The position numbers were made by a program, and so were the translations under genes. The notes under the pieces are model-generated. The model did not search any database and was not told the origin of the DNA. It saw only the letters and a list, made by a program, of their open reading frames with translations. DNA of 41,260 nt, taken from the IMG/VR virus record IMGVR_UViG_3300045009_000035, positions 1 through 41,260 of that record. One strand, written 5' to 3'. Below, piece after piece: positions 36,021-41,047 of this stretch. How positions within the stretch are numbered: position 1 is the first letter of the stretch; every line of letters starts with the position of its first letter. Source of the DNA: a virus.

Positions 36021-36042
36021 ATAGTGCCACACTTGGCACTAT
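36021..36042. terminator. Convergent hairpin between + and - genes
   Basis: A perfect 8-bp stem (36021-36028 with 36035-36042) around a 6-base loop. It lies between the end of the HExxH gene (+) and the end of the lone - strand gene, whose stop is at 36050. No strong T-run on either side. It could serve both directions. Confidence 0.5.
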
Positions 36043-36049
36043 CTGTAGT

Positions 36050-36517
36050 TCATTCGCTCCACAACGTGACATCGTTGCGGCGGTAACGGTGCAGGTCTTT
36101 GCCCTTGTCGGTGCGGATGAAATGGCGGTCGCTGAACACGCAGTAGTTGTTGGGCAGGAGCGCGAACTGTCCGCCCTCAAGCTCGATCATGTTGAGCGGC
36201 TTGTGCTCGGCAGGGTAGCGGCTGAACCCATCTGACCAGTCGAGCATGATCCCGGTGTGCCGACCCCTTCCTGTCATGCGCGTCGTGACGGGCAATCCCT
36301 CTAGGTAGTTGATGTGCCAGGCTTGTAGATCCTCGCCCATCGCTCCCCACGGTTGCAGGACGCGCTGCTCTAGCGCGAACTCCTCGCTCGTAGAGATCAG
36401 GTGCCAGAGCATGCCCGACCAGTGCGCGCCGCTCTCAAGCAGCACGTGGCCCATGACAGGCTGACCAGGCCGGCAATGCACCGCGTGCAGGATGCCACGT
36501 GTAACACCATGTTGCAT
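36050..36517 (-). CDS. Lone - strand protein of unknown function
   Basis: A 155-residue protein if read from the ATG at 36517; a GTG at 36583 would add 22 residues and the frame continues further without a start that has a ribosome site. The body reads HAVHCRPGQPVMGHVLLESG, WSGMLWHLISTSEEFALEQR, PWGAMGEDLQAWHINYLEGL and PLNMIELEGGQFALLPNNYC, ending FIRTDKGKDLHRYRRND. The composition is that of a real folded protein with many Trp and His residues. I do not recognise the family. It is the only - strand gene inside the + block, often the position of accessory or defence genes. Confidence 0.68.
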   Translation of the reverse strand: MQHGVTRGILHAVHCRPGQPVMGHVLLESGAHWSGMLWHLISTSEEFALEQRVLQPWGAMGEDLQAWHINYLEGLPVTTRMTGRGRHTGIMLDWSDGFSRYPAEHKPLNMIELEGGQFALLPNNYCVFSDRHFIRTDKGKDLHRYRRNDVTLWSE

Positions 36518-36744
36518 CGTCGGCCCGAGCGCCGAGTTTGCTACGTTGACATATAGGTGAAACGGTAGGTTGGCGTGGCGCACGAGGGTACGATAGCGGT
36601 GCGGGTGTGTGAGTCTGCGCCTATGGCAAACACTCACGCGGGCGCCATGCCGAGGCCGCGAGGTACACCGTGGCGCGCAGTGCCGCTGATGTAAGAACAG
36701 CATCCCGCCACGGGCAGGCGCCGCGAGGCGCTGTGCCTACGCAA

Positions 36745-36770
36745 ACGCCCAGCCGGGGGAAGCTGGGCGT
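36745..36770 (-). terminator. Perfect 9-bp hairpin, terminator-like on the - strand
   Basis: ACGCCCAGC (36745-36753) pairs with GCTGGGCGT (36762-36770) around an 8-base loop. On the - strand the stem runs into TTTGCG, a weak T-run. No obvious gene ends here, so it may shield the - strand gene from read-through or belong to a small RNA. Confidence 0.4.
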
Positions 36771-36796
36771 CGCGCTAAGGGTCACTGAACGGGCGG

Positions 36797-36831
36797 AATG
36801 TACTTGCGCCACGGCGAACGTCAAGTATGCT
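36797..36831. promoter_or_regulatory. Weak overlapping divergent promoter elements
   Basis: On the - strand TTGACG (36824-36819), 16 bases, TACATT (36802-36797) could serve the lone - gene. On the + strand TTGCGC (36804-36809), 16 bases, TATGCT (36826-36831) could serve the replication gene and, by read-through, the late operon. Both are poor matches. Confidence 0.3.
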
Positions 36832-36839
36832 GCGCGGCA

Positions 36840-36894
36840 GAGCGGTTTGGCAGTCGCTCAACAACCAAGTCGGGGTAGTACCGCCAAACCGCTC
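36840..36894 (+). repeat. 12-bp perfect inverted repeat with 31-base loop
   Basis: GAGCGGTTTGGC (36840-36851) and its exact complement at 36883-36894 form a stem that can extend by four further G-C pairs across a small interior loop (36834-36837 with 36897-36900). It sits 61 bases before the replication gene. It lacks tRNA features such as a T-loop. Candidate structured leader, attenuator or origin-associated element. Confidence 0.6.
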
Positions 36895-36955
36895 CCCCGC
36901 CTCGCCCCGGATTTACGCATTTGTCCGCTACATGGCGGACGGAAGGACTTGACGC

Positions 36956-37882
36956 ATGGCTACGGATCTGCCTTGGTTTCCGATGTACCCGAATGACTTC
37001 CTGACGAGCACGATGTCAATGTCGAATGAGGTGCTTGGCGCGTACATCAGGTTGTTGTGCTACGCCTGGGTGAACGATGGGATTCCAGATGACCGAGACA
37101 TGATTGACCGCATCTCTGGCGGTTTGACTGACGAGGAATGGGATGAGATTCGGGAGCGTTTGGTACTGAACGGTGACCGCAGCGGTGACCGTGACGGTGA
37201 CCGTAGCGGTGACCGTCGCGCTAGGTGGGTTCATCCGCGAATGGAACGAGAGCGTGCTAAGACTGCCGATGTGCGTTCAGCACGTCAAAAGGCGGCGGAG
37301 CAGACCAATAACCGTAGATTGGCAGCGCGAAACAACGGTCAGCGTAGCGGTGACCGTGACGGTGACCGTAACGGTGAGCGTCCGTATTCACAGTCACAAT
37401 CACAATCACAAAAACAAACCACCCCCTATAGTCCCCCAAAGGGGACGGGGGCGGGGGTTGTTGACATCAAGGATTCGGAACTGCGCAGACTCGTCATGCG
37501 CGAGCCGGCCTGGCGGACGCGCATTGAGCGTGCCGAGGCTGGCGACTGGTATGACGAGGACAAGCGACCCATCGACGCGGCGAGTGTTCTGGCAACGGCG
37601 ATGAACACCGTGCGCGAGCGCACGATCAACGAGCGCGACACGATCATCGAGCGAGTGACAGCGAAGGGGTTGAGCGACGGCGAGGCTGCGCAGCTGTGGC
37701 GGGCATGGTTTGTAGAGCACATGAACGGCGGCCCGGCGCCAGGCACGGCCATGCGCAACGATCTCAACGACAAGACGATTCGCAATCACGCAAGCGTGTG
37801 GAGGGCGAGGCTAGGCGGCAAGTACACTCCCGATCATGGCGAAGTCACGCAAGGGACCAGTGCTGCTGGCGGGGATGGATGA
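36956..37882 (+). CDS. DUF1376-type replication initiator-like protein
   Basis: A 308-residue protein. The N-terminal DUF1376 domain has LPWFPMYPNDFLTSTMSMSN, GAYIRLLCYAWVNDGIPDD and LTDEEWDEIRERL; members are usually replication-initiation proteins encoded next to origins. A linker follows whose SGDR/DGDR repeats (residues about 73-86 and 123-142) are the translation of DNA repeats. A SQSQSQSQKQ stretch comes next, then a C-terminal helical domain (LRRLVMREPAWRTRIERAEA, AAQLWRAWFVEHMNGG). It is probably the analogue of lambda O, binding the origin inside its own gene and recruiting the host helicase. GGAAGGA lies seven to eight bases before the ATG. No ATPase motif. Confidence 0.82.
   Translation: MATDLPWFPMYPNDFLTSTMSMSNEVLGAYIRLLCYAWVNDGIPDDRDMIDRISGGLTDEEWDEIRERLVLNGDRSGDRDGDRSGDRRARWVHPRMERERAKTADVRSARQKAAEQTNNRRLAARNNGQRSGDRDGDRNGERPYSQSQSQSQKQTTPYSPPKGTGAGVVDIKDSELRRLVMREPAWRTRIERAEAGDWYDEDKRPIDAASVLATAMNTVRERTINERDTIIERVTAKGLSDGEAAQLWRAWFVEHMNGGPAPGTAMRNDLNDKTIRNHASVWRARLGGKYTPDHGEVTQGTSAAGGDG
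37171..37218 (+). repeat. Iteron array 1: four 12-bp repeats
   Basis: Four head-to-tail 12-bp units at 37171, 37183, 37195 and 37207, each beginning CGGTGACCG. The 9-bp core is palindromic except for its middle base. They lie inside the replication gene, in frame, as initiator-binding iterons do in lambda gene O. Confidence 0.85.
37336..37383 (+). repeat. Iteron array 2: four 12-bp repeats
   Basis: Four further units at 37336, 37348, 37360 and 37372. The inner two match CGGTGACCG exactly; the outer two differ by one or two bases (CGGTCAGCG, CGGTGAGCG). The array is 117 bases downstream of the first, with the same 12-bp period. Confidence 0.82.
37388..37421 (+). promoter_or_regulatory. A-rich tract beside iterons: candidate DNA unwinding element
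   Basis: A purine/CA-rich tract with a 6-base period (CACAAT units, then CAAAAACAAA) immediately follows iteron array 2. It is far lower in G/C than its surroundings. In lambda the iterons are likewise followed by an A/T-rich unwinding region. Origin function is inferred. Confidence 0.6.
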
Positions 37883-38111
37883 CTGCCTGCTCGGCATCAA
37901 CTACCCACGAGCAGGCGAACGAGGCCCGCCAGTCGCCGTGTACTCAGCCGACATGATCGTCGCCCGCCTGCGCGACTTCCAAGGCATGACCGTCAAGCAG
38001 GCCAGGTGCTGGGTCACCGACGAGATCGAGACGCGGTGGATGGGTGTCGGCACGCCGCGAATCGTGTGGGCAGCGACTATCCAAGATTTCGGTGTCAACT
38101 CCACGGTGTGA
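37836..38111 (+). CDS. Small unknown protein after the replication gene
   Basis: A 91-residue protein overlapping the end of the replication gene by 47 bases. The body is GMDDCLLGINYPRAGERGPP, VAVYSADMIVARLRDFQGMT and VTDEIETRWMGVGTPRIVWA. A shorter start at 37875 (MDDCLLG) is also possible and would nearly remove the overlap. No family recognised; an accessory replication or regulatory role is suggested only by position. Confidence 0.62.
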   Translation: MAKSRKGPVLLAGMDDCLLGINYPRAGERGPPVAVYSADMIVARLRDFQGMTVKQARCWVTDEIETRWMGVGTPRIVWAATIQDFGVNSTV

Positions 38112-38137
38112 CAGATTCCTGACCTATATTGTCAGAT

Positions 38138-38386
38138 ATGACGGTCAGCACGTTTGATGATTTCAGGGACGCAATTGTCGCACACTTGGAGCGTAACGGC
38201 TCGTCGCGCAACGAGTTAGCGATGAGTCTCGACAAGCAACGGGTGCTGCGGGCGCATTCTGTGCGCTGCATCCTGAGCCAAGCGCCGAGCCTGCGCCGGC
38301 GGTACGCATCGTTCAACTCCATTCTCGCCATCGCAGACGCGGCGGGATTTACTATCCAACTTTCACCCAAGAATGAAACGGAATAA
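38138..38386 (+). CDS. Small helix-turn-helix-like regulator
   Basis: An 82-residue protein: STFDDFRDAIVAHLERNGSS, RNELAMSLDKQRVLRAHSVR, then SFNSILAIADAAGFTIQLSP. The pattern of a helical N-terminus, an HTH-like NELAMSLD turn, and the IADAAGFTIQLSPK end is that of small XRE-like phage proteins. A short inverted repeat (CTGAC/GTCAG) overlaps its start region and could be an autoregulatory operator. The ATG at 38138 was chosen over a TTG three codons upstream. Its end overlaps the terminase small subunit start by 14 bases. Confidence 0.68.
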   Translation: MTVSTFDDFRDAIVAHLERNGSSRNELAMSLDKQRVLRAHSVRCILSQAPSLRRRYASFNSILAIADAAGFTIQLSPKNETE

Positions 38387-38936
38387 GAATGCCAAGCAAG
38401 TCCGCGGCGCAAAAGCGCTTGATGCAAGCAGCAGCGCACAATCGATCGTTCGCCAAGAAAGCGGGAGTCCCGCAGTCGGTAGCCAAGAAGTTCGTCAGGG
38501 CGGACAAGGCGAAGTCCCGCCGCTCCCGGTAAGGCGCCGTAGAGGCCGTCCGCCGACTTTCACGGGCGCGCCTGAGCCACAGGCCACCGAACTGGTCAAC
38601 TGGCTGTCTGAGGGCAAGCCGCTGCGTGCATGGTGCCGTGAACCAGGCAACCCGTCACACATGGCGATTTACGACTGGATTGTGTGGGATGAGAACTTCG
38701 CTTTACGCATCGCGCAGGCGCGTGAGGATGGCTATGACGTGCATGCTGACGAATGCATCCGGCTAGCGGATACCAAGCCAGCCGACCAGGTTGAGGTGGG
38801 TTGGCGGCGCCTGCAGATTGACACGAGGCTCAAGCTGCTCGCCAAGTGGAACCCCAAGAAGTACGGCGACCGGGTCGGCGTTGACCATGCCGGCGGCGTG
38901 ACCCTCAACGTCACGACAGGCGTACCAGCCGAATGA
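38373..38936 (+). CDS. terS: Terminase small subunit
   Basis: A 187-residue frame. From about residue 55 it shows the terminase small subunit pattern: RRRRGRPPTFTG, ATELVNWLSEGKPLRAWCRE, NPSHMAIYDWIVWDENFALR, AREDGYDVHADECIRLADT and RRLQIDTRLKLLAKWNPKKY. It recognises phage DNA and starts packaging with the large subunit. The first 50 residues overlap the 47-residue gene in another frame and look unconserved. No better in-frame start exists downstream, so either the extension is real or the protein starts by reinitiation or frameshift near 38530. It ends four bases into the large subunit gene (ATGA). Confidence 0.88.
   Translation: MKRNKNAKQVRGAKALDASSSAQSIVRQESGSPAVGSQEVRQGGQGEVPPLPVRRRRGRPPTFTGAPEPQATELVNWLSEGKPLRAWCREPGNPSHMAIYDWIVWDENFALRIAQAREDGYDVHADECIRLADTKPADQVEVGWRRLQIDTRLKLLAKWNPKKYGDRVGVDHAGGVTLNVTTGVPAE
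38389..38532 (+). CDS. 47-residue basic phage protein nested in the terminase small subunit gene
   Basis: A short gene out of frame with the surrounding terminase frame. It encodes MPSKSAAQKRLMQAAAHNRS, FAKKAGVPQSVAKKFVRADK and a basic tail. This is a recurrent small phage protein type, with S-x-x-QKR-x-M-x-A-x-AHN-x-x-FAKK and GVPQSVA-x-x-F elements. The strong family-like pattern argues that this frame is the ancestral coding frame of the stretch, and that the N-terminal 50 residues of the terminase frame are overprinted on it. Function unknown; basic, probably nucleic-acid binding. Confidence 0.7.
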   Translation: MPSKSAAQKRLMQAAAHNRSFAKKAGVPQSVAKKFVRADKAKSRRSR

Positions 38937-40258
38937 CCGCGATCAGACTCGACTACCACCCGCGAGCGTGGCAGCGCGAATGTCACCTCAAGAGGCGACG
39001 GTTCACCGTTCTTGCCCTGCACCGCCGTGCCGGCAAGACCGAACTCGCCATCATGGAGTTGATTGACAAATGCCTCAAGTGCAAGGCGGAACTAGGGTTC
39101 TACGTCTATGTCGCCCCGTTCCTCAAGCAGGCCAAGGCCATCGCCTGGGCGCGGCTCAAGCAGAAACTCATGCCCATGCGGCAAACGGCGGCCATCGACA
39201 TCAACGAGGCGGATCTAGCCGTCACGTTCAAACACAACGGCGCGACCATCCGTCTGTTCGGCGGCGACAACCCCGACGCCCTGCGCGGCGTCCGTCTCGA
39301 CGGCTGCGTGATTGACGAGGTCGCCCAGATCAGGCCCGAGGTCTGGAACGACATCATCCAGCCCGCCCTGTCCGACCGCCAAGGTTGGGCCATGTTCATC
39401 GGGACGCCGGCGGGCATCAACCTGTTCAGCGAGTTGTTCTACCGGGCAAGCAGCCTGCCCGACTGGTGGGCTGCTCGTTATACCGTCAACGATACAGACG
39501 CCATCGACAAGGCCGAAGTGCGCCGTCTCAAGCGCGACATGCCCGAGTCGGCCTACGCACGCGAGTACCTGTGCGACTTCACCGCCGCCGGCGACAACCA
39601 GCTCATCACGCTTGCCGACGCCGAAAGCGCCGCTGCGCTCGTCTACGCAGACCGCGATGTCAACGACGCGCCGCTCGTCATGGGGGTTGACCCGGCCAGG
39701 TTCGGCGATGACCGCAGCGTCGTGGTGTTCCGGCAGGGGCTGCGCATGGAGACGCCCAACATCTTCCAAGGCATTGACAACATGGCGCTCGCAGGGCGCA
39801 TTGCTAGCCTGATCGAGGAACGCGACCCGGACGCGGTGTTCATCGACGTCGGCGGAGGTGCAGGCGTAATCGACCGCCTGCGGCAGCTCGACTACGACGT
39901 CATGGAGGTGAACTTCGGCGGCAAGGCGATCTACCCCAACCTGTATGTCAACAAGCGCACCGAGATGTGGTGGGGCATGCGCGAGTGGCTGCAGTCGGGC
40001 GGCTCAATCCCCAACGACACGACGCTCAAGGCCGAACTGGCAACCCCGACCTACGAGTTTGACATGGTCGGCAGGCGCGTGCTTGAGTCCAAGGACGAGA
40101 TCAAGAAGCGTCTGCAGGGAGGCGCAAGCCCCGACATCGCCGACGCCCTGGCGTTGACATTCGCGTTCCCGGTCGCCAAGGCTTTGCCACGAGAGATCAG
40201 GGAGCGCATCGACCCACGCGCACGGAACGACTACGACCCATACGAGGCAATGTCATGA
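38933..40258 (+). CDS. terL: Terminase large subunit
   Basis: A 441-residue packaging motor. The ATPase domain has a variant Walker A (LALHRRAGKTE, Lys35-Thr36), Walker B CVIDEVAQ (Asp128, Glu129) and coupling motif FIGTPAG (155-161). The C-terminal RNase H-like nuclease has GVDPARFGDDRS (Asp253), FIDVGGGAG (Asp305) and SPDIADALALTF near the end. It pumps DNA into the procapsid and cuts the concatemer. The permuted assembly is compatible with headful cutting. It begins in the small subunit stop and ends in the GNAT start. Confidence 0.95.
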   Translation: MTAIRLDYHPRAWQRECHLKRRRFTVLALHRRAGKTELAIMELIDKCLKCKAELGFYVYVAPFLKQAKAIAWARLKQKLMPMRQTAAIDINEADLAVTFKHNGATIRLFGGDNPDALRGVRLDGCVIDEVAQIRPEVWNDIIQPALSDRQGWAMFIGTPAGINLFSELFYRASSLPDWWAARYTVNDTDAIDKAEVRRLKRDMPESAYAREYLCDFTAAGDNQLITLADAESAAALVYADRDVNDAPLVMGVDPARFGDDRSVVVFRQGLRMETPNIFQGIDNMALAGRIASLIEERDPDAVFIDVGGGAGVIDRLRQLDYDVMEVNFGGKAIYPNLYVNKRTEMWWGMREWLQSGGSIPNDTTLKAELATPTYEFDMVGRRVLESKDEIKKRLQGGASPDIADALALTFAFPVAKALPREIRERIDPRARNDYDPYEAMS

Positions 40259-40701
40259 ACATCCGCTTGGCAACCATCGAAGACGCCGCCGTGTTGACAG
40301 CGATGGGCCGTGACTTCCTGCAGTACAGCGAGTACCGCAATTTGAGTGTGACGGACGATGAAATCACCACAGGTGTTGCTGGCGTCATTGGAAACGGCAT
40401 GTCGTTCGTTGCCGAACAGGATGACAGGATCGTTGGTTTCATCCTTGGGATCATCGGACCAATGTGGTTTGTGCAACGGGTTAGAGTCGCCATCGAACTA
40501 GCGTGGTGGGTCGATCCGTCATACAGAAACACGACGGCTGGAGTCCGATTGCTCAAGGCATTTGAAAATCACGCCACTAACATGGGCGTGCAGTACATCG
40601 CTATGAGCGATCTAGTTGTGCAAGGTGACACACCTGTTGCAAGATTGTTGGGGCGAATGGGTTATATTGTCACGGAACGCATGCACACGAAGGAGATTTG
40701 A
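40255..40701 (+). CDS. GNAT-family acetyltransferase
   Basis: A 148-residue enzyme with the GNAT layout: NIRLATIEDAAVLTAMGRDF, the strand FVAEQDDRIVGFILGII, the strand-turn AIELAWWVDPSYRNTTAGVR (acetyl-CoA pyrophosphate region, here with RNTTAG in place of the usual R/Q-x-x-G-x-G/A), and the final LLGRMGYIVTERMHTKE. Such genes often lie between terminase and portal in environmental podoviruses. Substrate unknown; it may modify a virion or host protein. ATGA overlap with the large terminase subunit. Confidence 0.82.
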   Translation: MNIRLATIEDAAVLTAMGRDFLQYSEYRNLSVTDDEITTGVAGVIGNGMSFVAEQDDRIVGFILGIIGPMWFVQRVRVAIELAWWVDPSYRNTTAGVRLLKAFENHATNMGVQYIAMSDLVVQGDTPVARLLGRMGYIVTERMHTKEI

Positions 40702-40702
40702 C

Positions 40703-41047
40703 ATGGCAGCAATTTCAAGCATCATCGCTGGCGTGGCAGCTGCTGCCGCCGCAGCTGGCACTGGTTACGCGGTCTACGCTGGCGAACGCGCAAGTGACGC
40801 GCAGAAGCAGGCTATGGCCGAGCAGCGCCAGGCGCAGACGCAGGCGGCAGCTCAGGCCGCATCGCAGCAGCGCCGCAGCGCGCAGGCTATGGCAGCCGCC
40901 AACCGTCGCCAGCCCGACATGGGCGCGATCATGGCTGGCGCAGCCGAAGGCGCAGGCGGCGGACCATCTAGCACCATGCTGACTGGTCCTAGCGGTGTGT
41001 CGCAGCAGGATCTTGCCTTGGGCCGGTCAACCCTCCTCGGAGGCTGA
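40703..41047 (+). CDS. Small Ala/Gln-rich protein with N-terminal membrane segment
   Basis: A 114-residue protein from the ATG at 40703, with AAGGAG about eight bases upstream. Residues 2-27 are hydrophobic (ISSIIAGVAAAAAAAGTGYA). A Gln/Ala/Arg helix follows (QKQAMAEQRQAQTQAAAQAA), then a Gly/Pro-rich linker and the end QDLALGRSTLLGG. Proteins of this type precede the portal in related phages and may be minor ejection or head proteins. A frame extending back to 40616 would run inside the GNAT gene and was rejected. Confidence 0.72.
   Translation: MAAISSIIAGVAAAAAAAGTGYAVYAGERASDAQKQAMAEQRQAQTQAAAQAASQQRRSAQAMAAANRRQPDMGAIMAGAAEGAGGGPSSTMLTGPSGVSQQDLALGRSTLLGG

Follow-up and report, generated by a model that had tools for sequence, protein, structure and literature searches.

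The window analysed here, which is the whole of a 41,260-base IMG/VR virus record with terminase, nozzle-like and cytosine methylase genes found by Pfam and PHROG searches, carries two arrays of short repeats and a periodic tract within a single gene. Two questions are raised by this locus, namely whether the repeats are kept for the sake of the DNA or of the protein which it encodes, and whether, as an earlier note on the sequence had proposed, they form a phage replication origin inside the gene of its own initiator. The parts of the locus are as follows.

36956 to 37882, plus strand: putative initiator gene, coding for a DUF1376 protein of 308 aa (ORF; Pfam PF07120; PHROG 'primosomal protein')
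36967 to 37446, plus strand: exchangeable cassette of DNA-binding domain, arrays, tract and hairpin (blastn against L005 and L007)
36971 to 37174, plus strand: DUF1376 domain, predicted winged helix and putative origin-binding domain (profile match; AF2 model)
37169 to 37216, plus strand: iteron array 1, 4 x 12 bp, residues 72-87, the predicted wing loop (repeat search; AF2 model)
37334 to 37381, plus strand: iteron array 2, 4 x 12 bp, residues 127-142 (repeat search; AF2 model)
37388 to 37420, plus strand: G-poor A/C tract with the hexamer TCACAA, proposed unwinding element (TRF; G count)
37422 to 37444, plus strand: C5-TATAGT-C5-loop-G4 element CCCCCTATAGTCCCCCAAAGGGG (L174 match; ssDNA fold; blind scan)
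37451 to 37831, plus strand: C-terminal helical domain (alignment with the HTH_36-type initiators of L005 and L007; AF2 pLDDT 90.8 when modelled alone)

The protein belongs to DUF1376 (PF07120), with 33.7 bits against a gathering cut-off of 30.1 and 36.3 bits for a DNA-level profile, and its PHROG matches carry the name 'primosomal protein'. The two in-frame arrays of four 12-bp units each, 117 bp apart, are indeed present as described earlier, and the 41-kb record holds no other strong window of 12-bp period. The core CGGTGACCG is exact in all four units of array 1 and in two of the four of array 2, where the outer two units match at 7/9 and 8/9 positions. Glycine is written as GGT in all eight units, a codon which accounts for 21% of glycine codons, and when the same peptides were re-encoded with the phage's own codon usage in 20,000 simulations, the 33 9-mer matches observed between the arrays were reached in none. 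The tract does have the 6-bp period first ascribed to it, over about 37388-37417, but in composition it is A/C-rich rather than simply A-rich, with 1 G in 33 nt where 8.0 are expected, a G count as low as this being reached in 1 of the 20,000 re-encodings. Two features go beyond the earlier description, namely a GC hairpin directly after the tract (37422-37444) and the wing-loop position of array 1. Since all copies in the window are in frame, the window alone cannot tell selection on the DNA from selection on the protein; homologs can.

To this end, 304 DUF1376 ORFs of at least 120 aa were collected, 105 of which are non-redundant at 60% identity, and synonymous shuffles of these 105 genes and 242 flanking ORFs served as controls. 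The outcome named beforehand as speaking against the proposal, that is, peptide repeats kept with the DNA repeats lost, was looked for in the homologs, and the opposite is seen. In L013 (59% identical), array 2 consists of four AATGGCCACCCC-type units, one with a mismatch, which are read as NGHP, and in array 1 of the same protein the same 12-bp word AATGGCCACCCC is read as MATP. The same DNA word is found in two frames of one protein also in L015, L016, L030, L035, L037, L041 and L055; in L016 and L041 the word is a different one, AGGGTGGCTCAAGC, which occurs in each of the two arrays and in both orientations. In other words, peptide motif, repeat word and reading frame all differ across the homologs, whereas the location and layout of the DNA repeats are constant, which bears out the suggestion that the protein repeats are dictated by the DNA.

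Identical 10-mers that are out of frame with one another occur in 54 of the 105 DUF1376 genes, as against 17% of synonymous shuffles and 43 of the 242 flanking ORFs (means of 2.80, 0.27 and 0.30, respectively), and out-of-frame 11-mers in 38 of the 105, as against 6% and 17/242; the remaining 51/105 genes contain no out-of-frame 10-mer. Such repeats cluster 60-180 nt past the DUF1376 domain, where they take up 9-12% of bases (elsewhere mostly about 0-2.5%), with spacings of 11, 14, 22 and 35 nt. In-frame repeats do not discriminate, their mean being higher in flanking ORFs than in DUF1376 genes, which we think is due to a few repetitive genes. An array in the wing is mainly a feature of the window's own clade, being present in 11 of 18 close relatives (shuffle expectation 5.8) and in 26 of 104 DUF1376 genes overall (expectation 15.1).

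Tracts of short period (5-8) are similarly characteristic, occurring in 55/105 DUF1376 genes as against 11.7% of shuffles and 2/242 flanking ORFs; the period is 7 in 26 of these 55 and 6 in 25, and the base composition of the tracts is A 47, C 33, G 7 and T 13%. With a period of 7, successive copies of the tract unit necessarily fall into all three reading frames of a single protein. When IMG/VR was scanned for four copies of AACCANN, blind to genes, at least 120 stretches were returned, and of the 80 loci read, 71 are in DUF1376 ORFs, 3 in truncated ORFs resembling the same linker and 6 elsewhere. From a scan for four copies of TCACAR, only 10 of 44 loci are in DUF1376 genes, such that the hexamer tract alone is neither specific nor diagnostic; within DUF1376 genes it occurs in two frames, as SQSQ and NHNH. 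In L473, a protein with a GRPKK-type linker, the TCACAR tract is on the opposite strand and is coded as CDCDCDCD, and the orientation of the tract relative to the gene may therefore flip.

The AF2 model of the window protein (mean pLDDT 80.6) runs from a winged helix through a long helix and a disordered linker (residues 135-166, pLDDT < 50) to a helical C-terminal domain. Within the DUF1376 domain, where pLDDT is > 90 in most blocks, helices are predicted in 12-66 and strands at 70-72 and 90-92. Array 1 encodes residues 72-87, the wing loop between these two strands, and array 2 encodes residues 127-142, the end of the long helix and the start of the linker; the tract corresponds to residues 145-155 and the hairpin to most of the rest of the linker. 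The DNA elements, therefore, sit where the protein can vary freely. The idea of a flexible linker encoded by the repeats holds in this model for array 2 and the tract but not for array 1, given its place in the predicted wing loop. Fold matches in the PDB are weak (Foldseek best E 2.2, 4pt7_B; VIA best Z 5.7), the top ones being to winged helices, from ORC2 at Z 5.7 and from plasmid-type initiators at Z 5.1, and unrelated proteins of this fold score only slightly lower. A sequence search of the PDB gave nothing for the DUF1376 profile and, for the whole protein, only a C-terminal match at E 0.05, and the BFVD matches are mainly other DUF1376 proteins followed, lower down, by Lin1244-like and, weakly, lambda-O-like proteins. 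The C-terminal domain alone gave no VIA row at Z ≥ 5 among 128 aligned chains, such that the role proposed for it, contact with a helicase or its loader, is drawn from its position and its swapping only. DUF1376 proteins that do not contain this domain end in DPNWVPF, NDSLPF or VERLPF, which we take to be like the tail of SSB. Such ends are seen in L035, L036, L037, L038, L040-L045, L047-L050, L052-L054, L057 and L063, and 19 of the 61 ORFs of one homolog set end in PF; by imitating the tail of SSB, these proteins may attract a partner.

Comparison with close relatives by blastn shows that the locus moves as a unit. DNA identity between the window and L005 is 91% over 36041-36966 and 88% over 37447-40711, and between these, over 36967-37446, there is no similarity to L005, which has an HTH_36 domain with its own repeats in this place. 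With L007, the homology breaks at 36966 and resumes at 37450, with HTH_36 there likewise. The C-terminal domains of L005 and L007 are 93% and 83% identical to that of the window, respectively. Near-identical phages, then, differ in the whole block of DNA-binding domain, repeats and tract, which is replaced by an unrelated HTH_36 block, while the remainder of the protein is retained. An ORF of 37836-38111, which overlaps the end of the initiator gene and matches phrog_13182 (function not known), has similar ORFs after the shared C-terminal domain in both L005 and L007. An HNH endonuclease ORF lies ahead of each of the two swapped HTH_36 cassettes (L007:1655-2554, PF01844 at E 2e-14; L005:934-1335, only a sub-threshold HNH_5 match at E 0.043), and homing might drive the replacement of origin cassettes. 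At L006:303-1220, an insert of ~850 bp with a PAPS-reductase-domain ORF is found at the 3' end of the initiator gene.

Repeats are present in 197 of the 203 genes kept for this comparison, and across these 197 the repeat words vary together with the DNA-binding domain rather than the C-terminal domain. Words are shared by 855 of 1847 pairs in which the DNA-binding domain is similar and the C-terminal domain dissimilar, some of these words coming from tracts, and by 319 of 12,501 pairs in which both domains are dissimilar, where again some of the shared words are tract words. Once tracts are masked, and at 60-90% domain identity, the conservation of repeated words exceeds that of single-copy words from the same linkers by a factor of 4.6-4.8. 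Co-variation of this kind is expected of a DNA-binding domain and the sites that it recognises, although shared ancestry contributes to it as well.

The C-C-G element that comes directly after the tract is part of a larger GC hairpin (about 37413-37462), for which ssDNA folding gives a nested hairpin with z of about -3.5 to -3.6 on either strand. L174 carries the identical 23-mer CCCCCTATAGTCCCCCAAAGGGG at the corresponding place but in a different frame, the two readings being TPYSPPKG and PPIVPQRG. A relaxed form of the pattern occurs in 11/105 DUF1376 genes and in 1/242 flanking ORFs, with 0.95 expected by synonymous shuffling; it is a minority feature of DUF1376, found within 110 nt after an AACCANN tract in only 4 of 79 loci. 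The element was noticed after the fact, and it was tested by two scans made without regard to gene context, each with one fixed spacer; both sets contain near-copies, 80 and 80 loci being read, with 53 and 55 left after thinning and length filters.

The scan for C5TATAGTC5-N0-8-G4 gave 107 stretches, and 69 of the 80 read have a same-strand ORF, with the element in one frame in 42 of them and in another in 27, the third being closed by a stop. Family searches covered 63 of the 64 same-strand ORFs of at least 120 aa in this set, of which 45 match phrog_270, replication initiation protein, the Pfam matches being to HTH_36 (17), Phage_rep_O (5), DUF6291 (4), DUF1376 (4), Lin1244_N (1) and DnaB_2 (1). 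The scan for C6TAC6-N0-8-G5 gave at least 120 stretches, and 72 of the 80 read have a same-strand ORF of at least 120 aa, the element ORFs falling in three frames (37, 30 and 5). DUF1376 accounts for 14 of these 80 loci by an in-house profile; among 58 of those with no match to this profile, 25 match phrog_678, O-like initiation, and Pfam gives Phage_rep_O 12, HTH_36 6 and DUF1376 4, the last having been missed by the in-house profile. In the thinned sets, repeated 10-mers are present in the 300 nt upstream of the element at 42/53 (C5TATAGTC5) and 42/55 (C6TAC6) loci, as against 49/265 and 52/275 windows drawn at random from the same contigs, and A makes up 43-46% of the 36 nt preceding the element. 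Gene O of Hafnia phage Pocitis76, in the order CI-Cro-CII-O, has the element (first 19 bases of the match kept), as does a gene adjoining DnaB in Flavonifractor phage Cormatin; the element is absent from lambda O. Nothing relevant to it was found in a search of open-licence PMC papers, which is weak evidence of absence. The hairpin may block unwinding, serve as a site for the primosome or for priming, or form a boundary for recombination; a promoter or terminator is also conceivable.

With regard to gene context, a survey of 96 proteins downstream of DUF1376 genes, chosen mechanically and with overlaps between families left in the counts, gave DnaB_C in 6, lambda P in 5 and IstB/DnaC-like proteins in 5, most others matching nothing informative; a helicase or loader gene also adjoins the initiator in L072, L075, L076 and L079. 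Profile searches recognised no helicase or loader among the window proteins that they covered, including beside the initiator gene. There is one match to the DnaA box TTWTNCACA in the window, at 2507, which is no more than chance, the GC skew mostly follows gene orientation and is uninformative on an origin, and the two Rfam matches in 36900-37900 are sub-threshold and at chance level. In the open-licence PMC excerpts on DUF1376 (e.g. PMC5795418), no origin function was found, again weak evidence of absence. A plasmid-like origin (PMC2647930, in excerpt) has no bearing on the question.

The overall emerging picture from these computations is that the repeats are selected as DNA, hold a fixed place, co-vary with DUF1376, travel with the cassette and occupy structurally permissive sites. 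By analogy with lambda, the locus is very probably a phage replication origin that lies within the gene for its own initiator, with DUF1376 as the origin-binding domain. The original proposal of an origin and its initiator is supported to this degree, and the cassette exchange, the co-variation of words with the domain and the helicase or loader genes in a minority of relatives are all commensurate with it. In such an origin, on the model of lambda and from the positions of the parts, the DUF1376 winged helix would bind the 12-bp iterons of both arrays, and the resulting multi-protein complex would stress the DNA and open the adjoining G-poor tract, at which the C-terminal domain would recruit the replicative helicase or its loader. 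The GC hairpin past the tract could, speculatively, bound the bubble or mark the loading site.

The arrays might alternatively serve the DUF1376 protein, or another regulator, as operators for the control of its own operon, with the origin located elsewhere. Repeat words would co-vary with the DNA-binding domain at any binding site, operators included, but intragenic, phased arrays in multiple copies, together with a G-poor tract and a hairpin, are unlike an operator layout. Moreover, helicase, lambda P or DnaC-like genes are found downstream in a minority of relatives, and the same arrangement is found again in annotated replication initiators from other families, Phage_rep_O among them; we consider a purely regulatory role improbable, although dual use of the arrays as operator and origin is possible. 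Less probable again is selection on the protein for a charged, low-complexity linker, with the DNA similarity left over from recent tandem duplication or slippage. Such an account agrees with the in-frame copies of the window and with the place of array 2 in the predicted disordered linker, and it would gain from homologs in which the peptide is kept and the DNA scrambled, but the reverse is seen: copies are frame-discordant in homologs, tracts have a period of 7, the window has an excess at the codon level, the identical 23-mer hairpin is read in two frames, and the repeats sit at a constant position across diverse genes.

The tract and C-C-G hairpin could also be a recombination boundary that promotes exchange of the DNA-binding module, as opposed to parts of an origin. 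The boundary of the swap with L005 and L007 (37447 and 37450) is indeed just past the hairpin, which is moreover common to unrelated initiators; yet both of these phages show the swap with no hairpin at that place. The hairpins scanned are preceded by an A-rich stretch on average, and by repeats in about three quarters of cases, which argues against a pure boundary sequence, since this would need neither. On balance, this explanation too is unlikely.

Beyond the reading of the locus as a lambda-like origin, a wider one can be offered tentatively, as a possibility whose chances fall somewhat short of even: that many unrelated phage initiators (DUF1376, HTH_36, Phage_rep_O, DUF6291, Lin1244_N and DnaD-like) share an undescribed three-part intragenic origin, made up of family-specific iterons, a G-poor tract and a recurring C-C-G hairpin, with DUF1376 as one of several interchangeable origin-binding domains, and that the hairpin owes its conservation at the DNA level to a host replication factor (primosome, primase, SSB or helicase) that recognises it, or the hairpin that its single strand forms. 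What the locus offers is a testable function for DUF1376, a domain that is widespread but of unknown function, together with a sequence rule, that is, a DNA-binding domain followed by frame-discordant repeats, a G-poor tract and a C-C-G hairpin, which could place origins in many uncultured phages from their sequence alone. It also shows a DNA-binding domain and its repeats moving as one cassette, and points to a short DNA element, common to unrelated initiators, as a possible target of a host factor.

Among known systems, the initiators of RepA_N and iteron plasmids are winged-helix proteins that bind iterons. The N-terminal fold of the window protein weakly matches 4pql, 5kbj and 4pt7, which we take to be RepA_N proteins, at Z 4.5-5.1 (4pql_A: VIA Z 5.1, 78 residues, 3.3 Å; 4pt7_B: Foldseek E 2.2), where Z < 8 does not show kinship, and the replicon type differs from a phage. 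Phage initiators of the HTH_36, DnaD-like, DUF6291 and Lin1244_N types have repeats, an A-rich stretch and a C-C-G element at a similar mid-gene position but belong to other DNA-binding domain families. In lambdoid phages the N-terminal module of the initiator is swappable, as is seen here by blastn for the DUF1376 cassette.

Closer still in family is ydaU (DUF1376) of the E. coli Rac prophage, which has in-gene repeats around GTTCAAACA, an A-rich stretch and then C7-TAAAT-C7-G5 (L011:9633; NC_000913 about 1421632), with ydaV, annotated as a putative ATP-binding protein, downstream. It has in common with the window the DUF1376 domain, the in-gene repeats, the A-rich stretch and a C-C-G-type element, and differs in repeat word, spacing and C-terminal domain. 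Rac is reported, in an excerpt of PMC3945230, to possess an active origin, oriJ, for which the region of the ydaU element is a candidate site; none of the papers found, including excerpts on YdaU (PMC7760358, PMC11014345), places oriJ in ydaU.

In lambda itself, the iterons and an AT-rich tract are in the middle of gene O (PMC7466680, in excerpt; background on lambda and plasmid origins in excerpts of PMC5043065 and PMC10797057). The iterons are at nt 349-433 of 900, array 2 of the window being at nt 379-426 of 927, and the lambda iterons repeat out of frame, with an A-rich stretch (26 A in 40 nt) just after them. The window shares with lambda iterons inside the initiator coding sequence and an A-rich stretch directly after them (37388-37420), but lambda has four iterons of 18 bp and the window 4 + 4 of 12 bp, in two arrays, one of them in the wing loop, and the window tract is periodic and A/C-rich rather than purine-rich. 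The window protein has no detectable homology to lambda O by BLASTP (E 4.1) and no match to PF04492 (Phage_rep_O) at E ≤ 10, the lambda O control giving 123.4 bits, in keeping with the earlier statement that the family differs from O. The locus, then, appears to work like the lambda origin with a protein from outside the lambda O family. The layout of an origin within an initiator gene was already known; what is new here is the DNA-binding family, the wing-loop array, the periodic G-poor tract and the shared hairpin.
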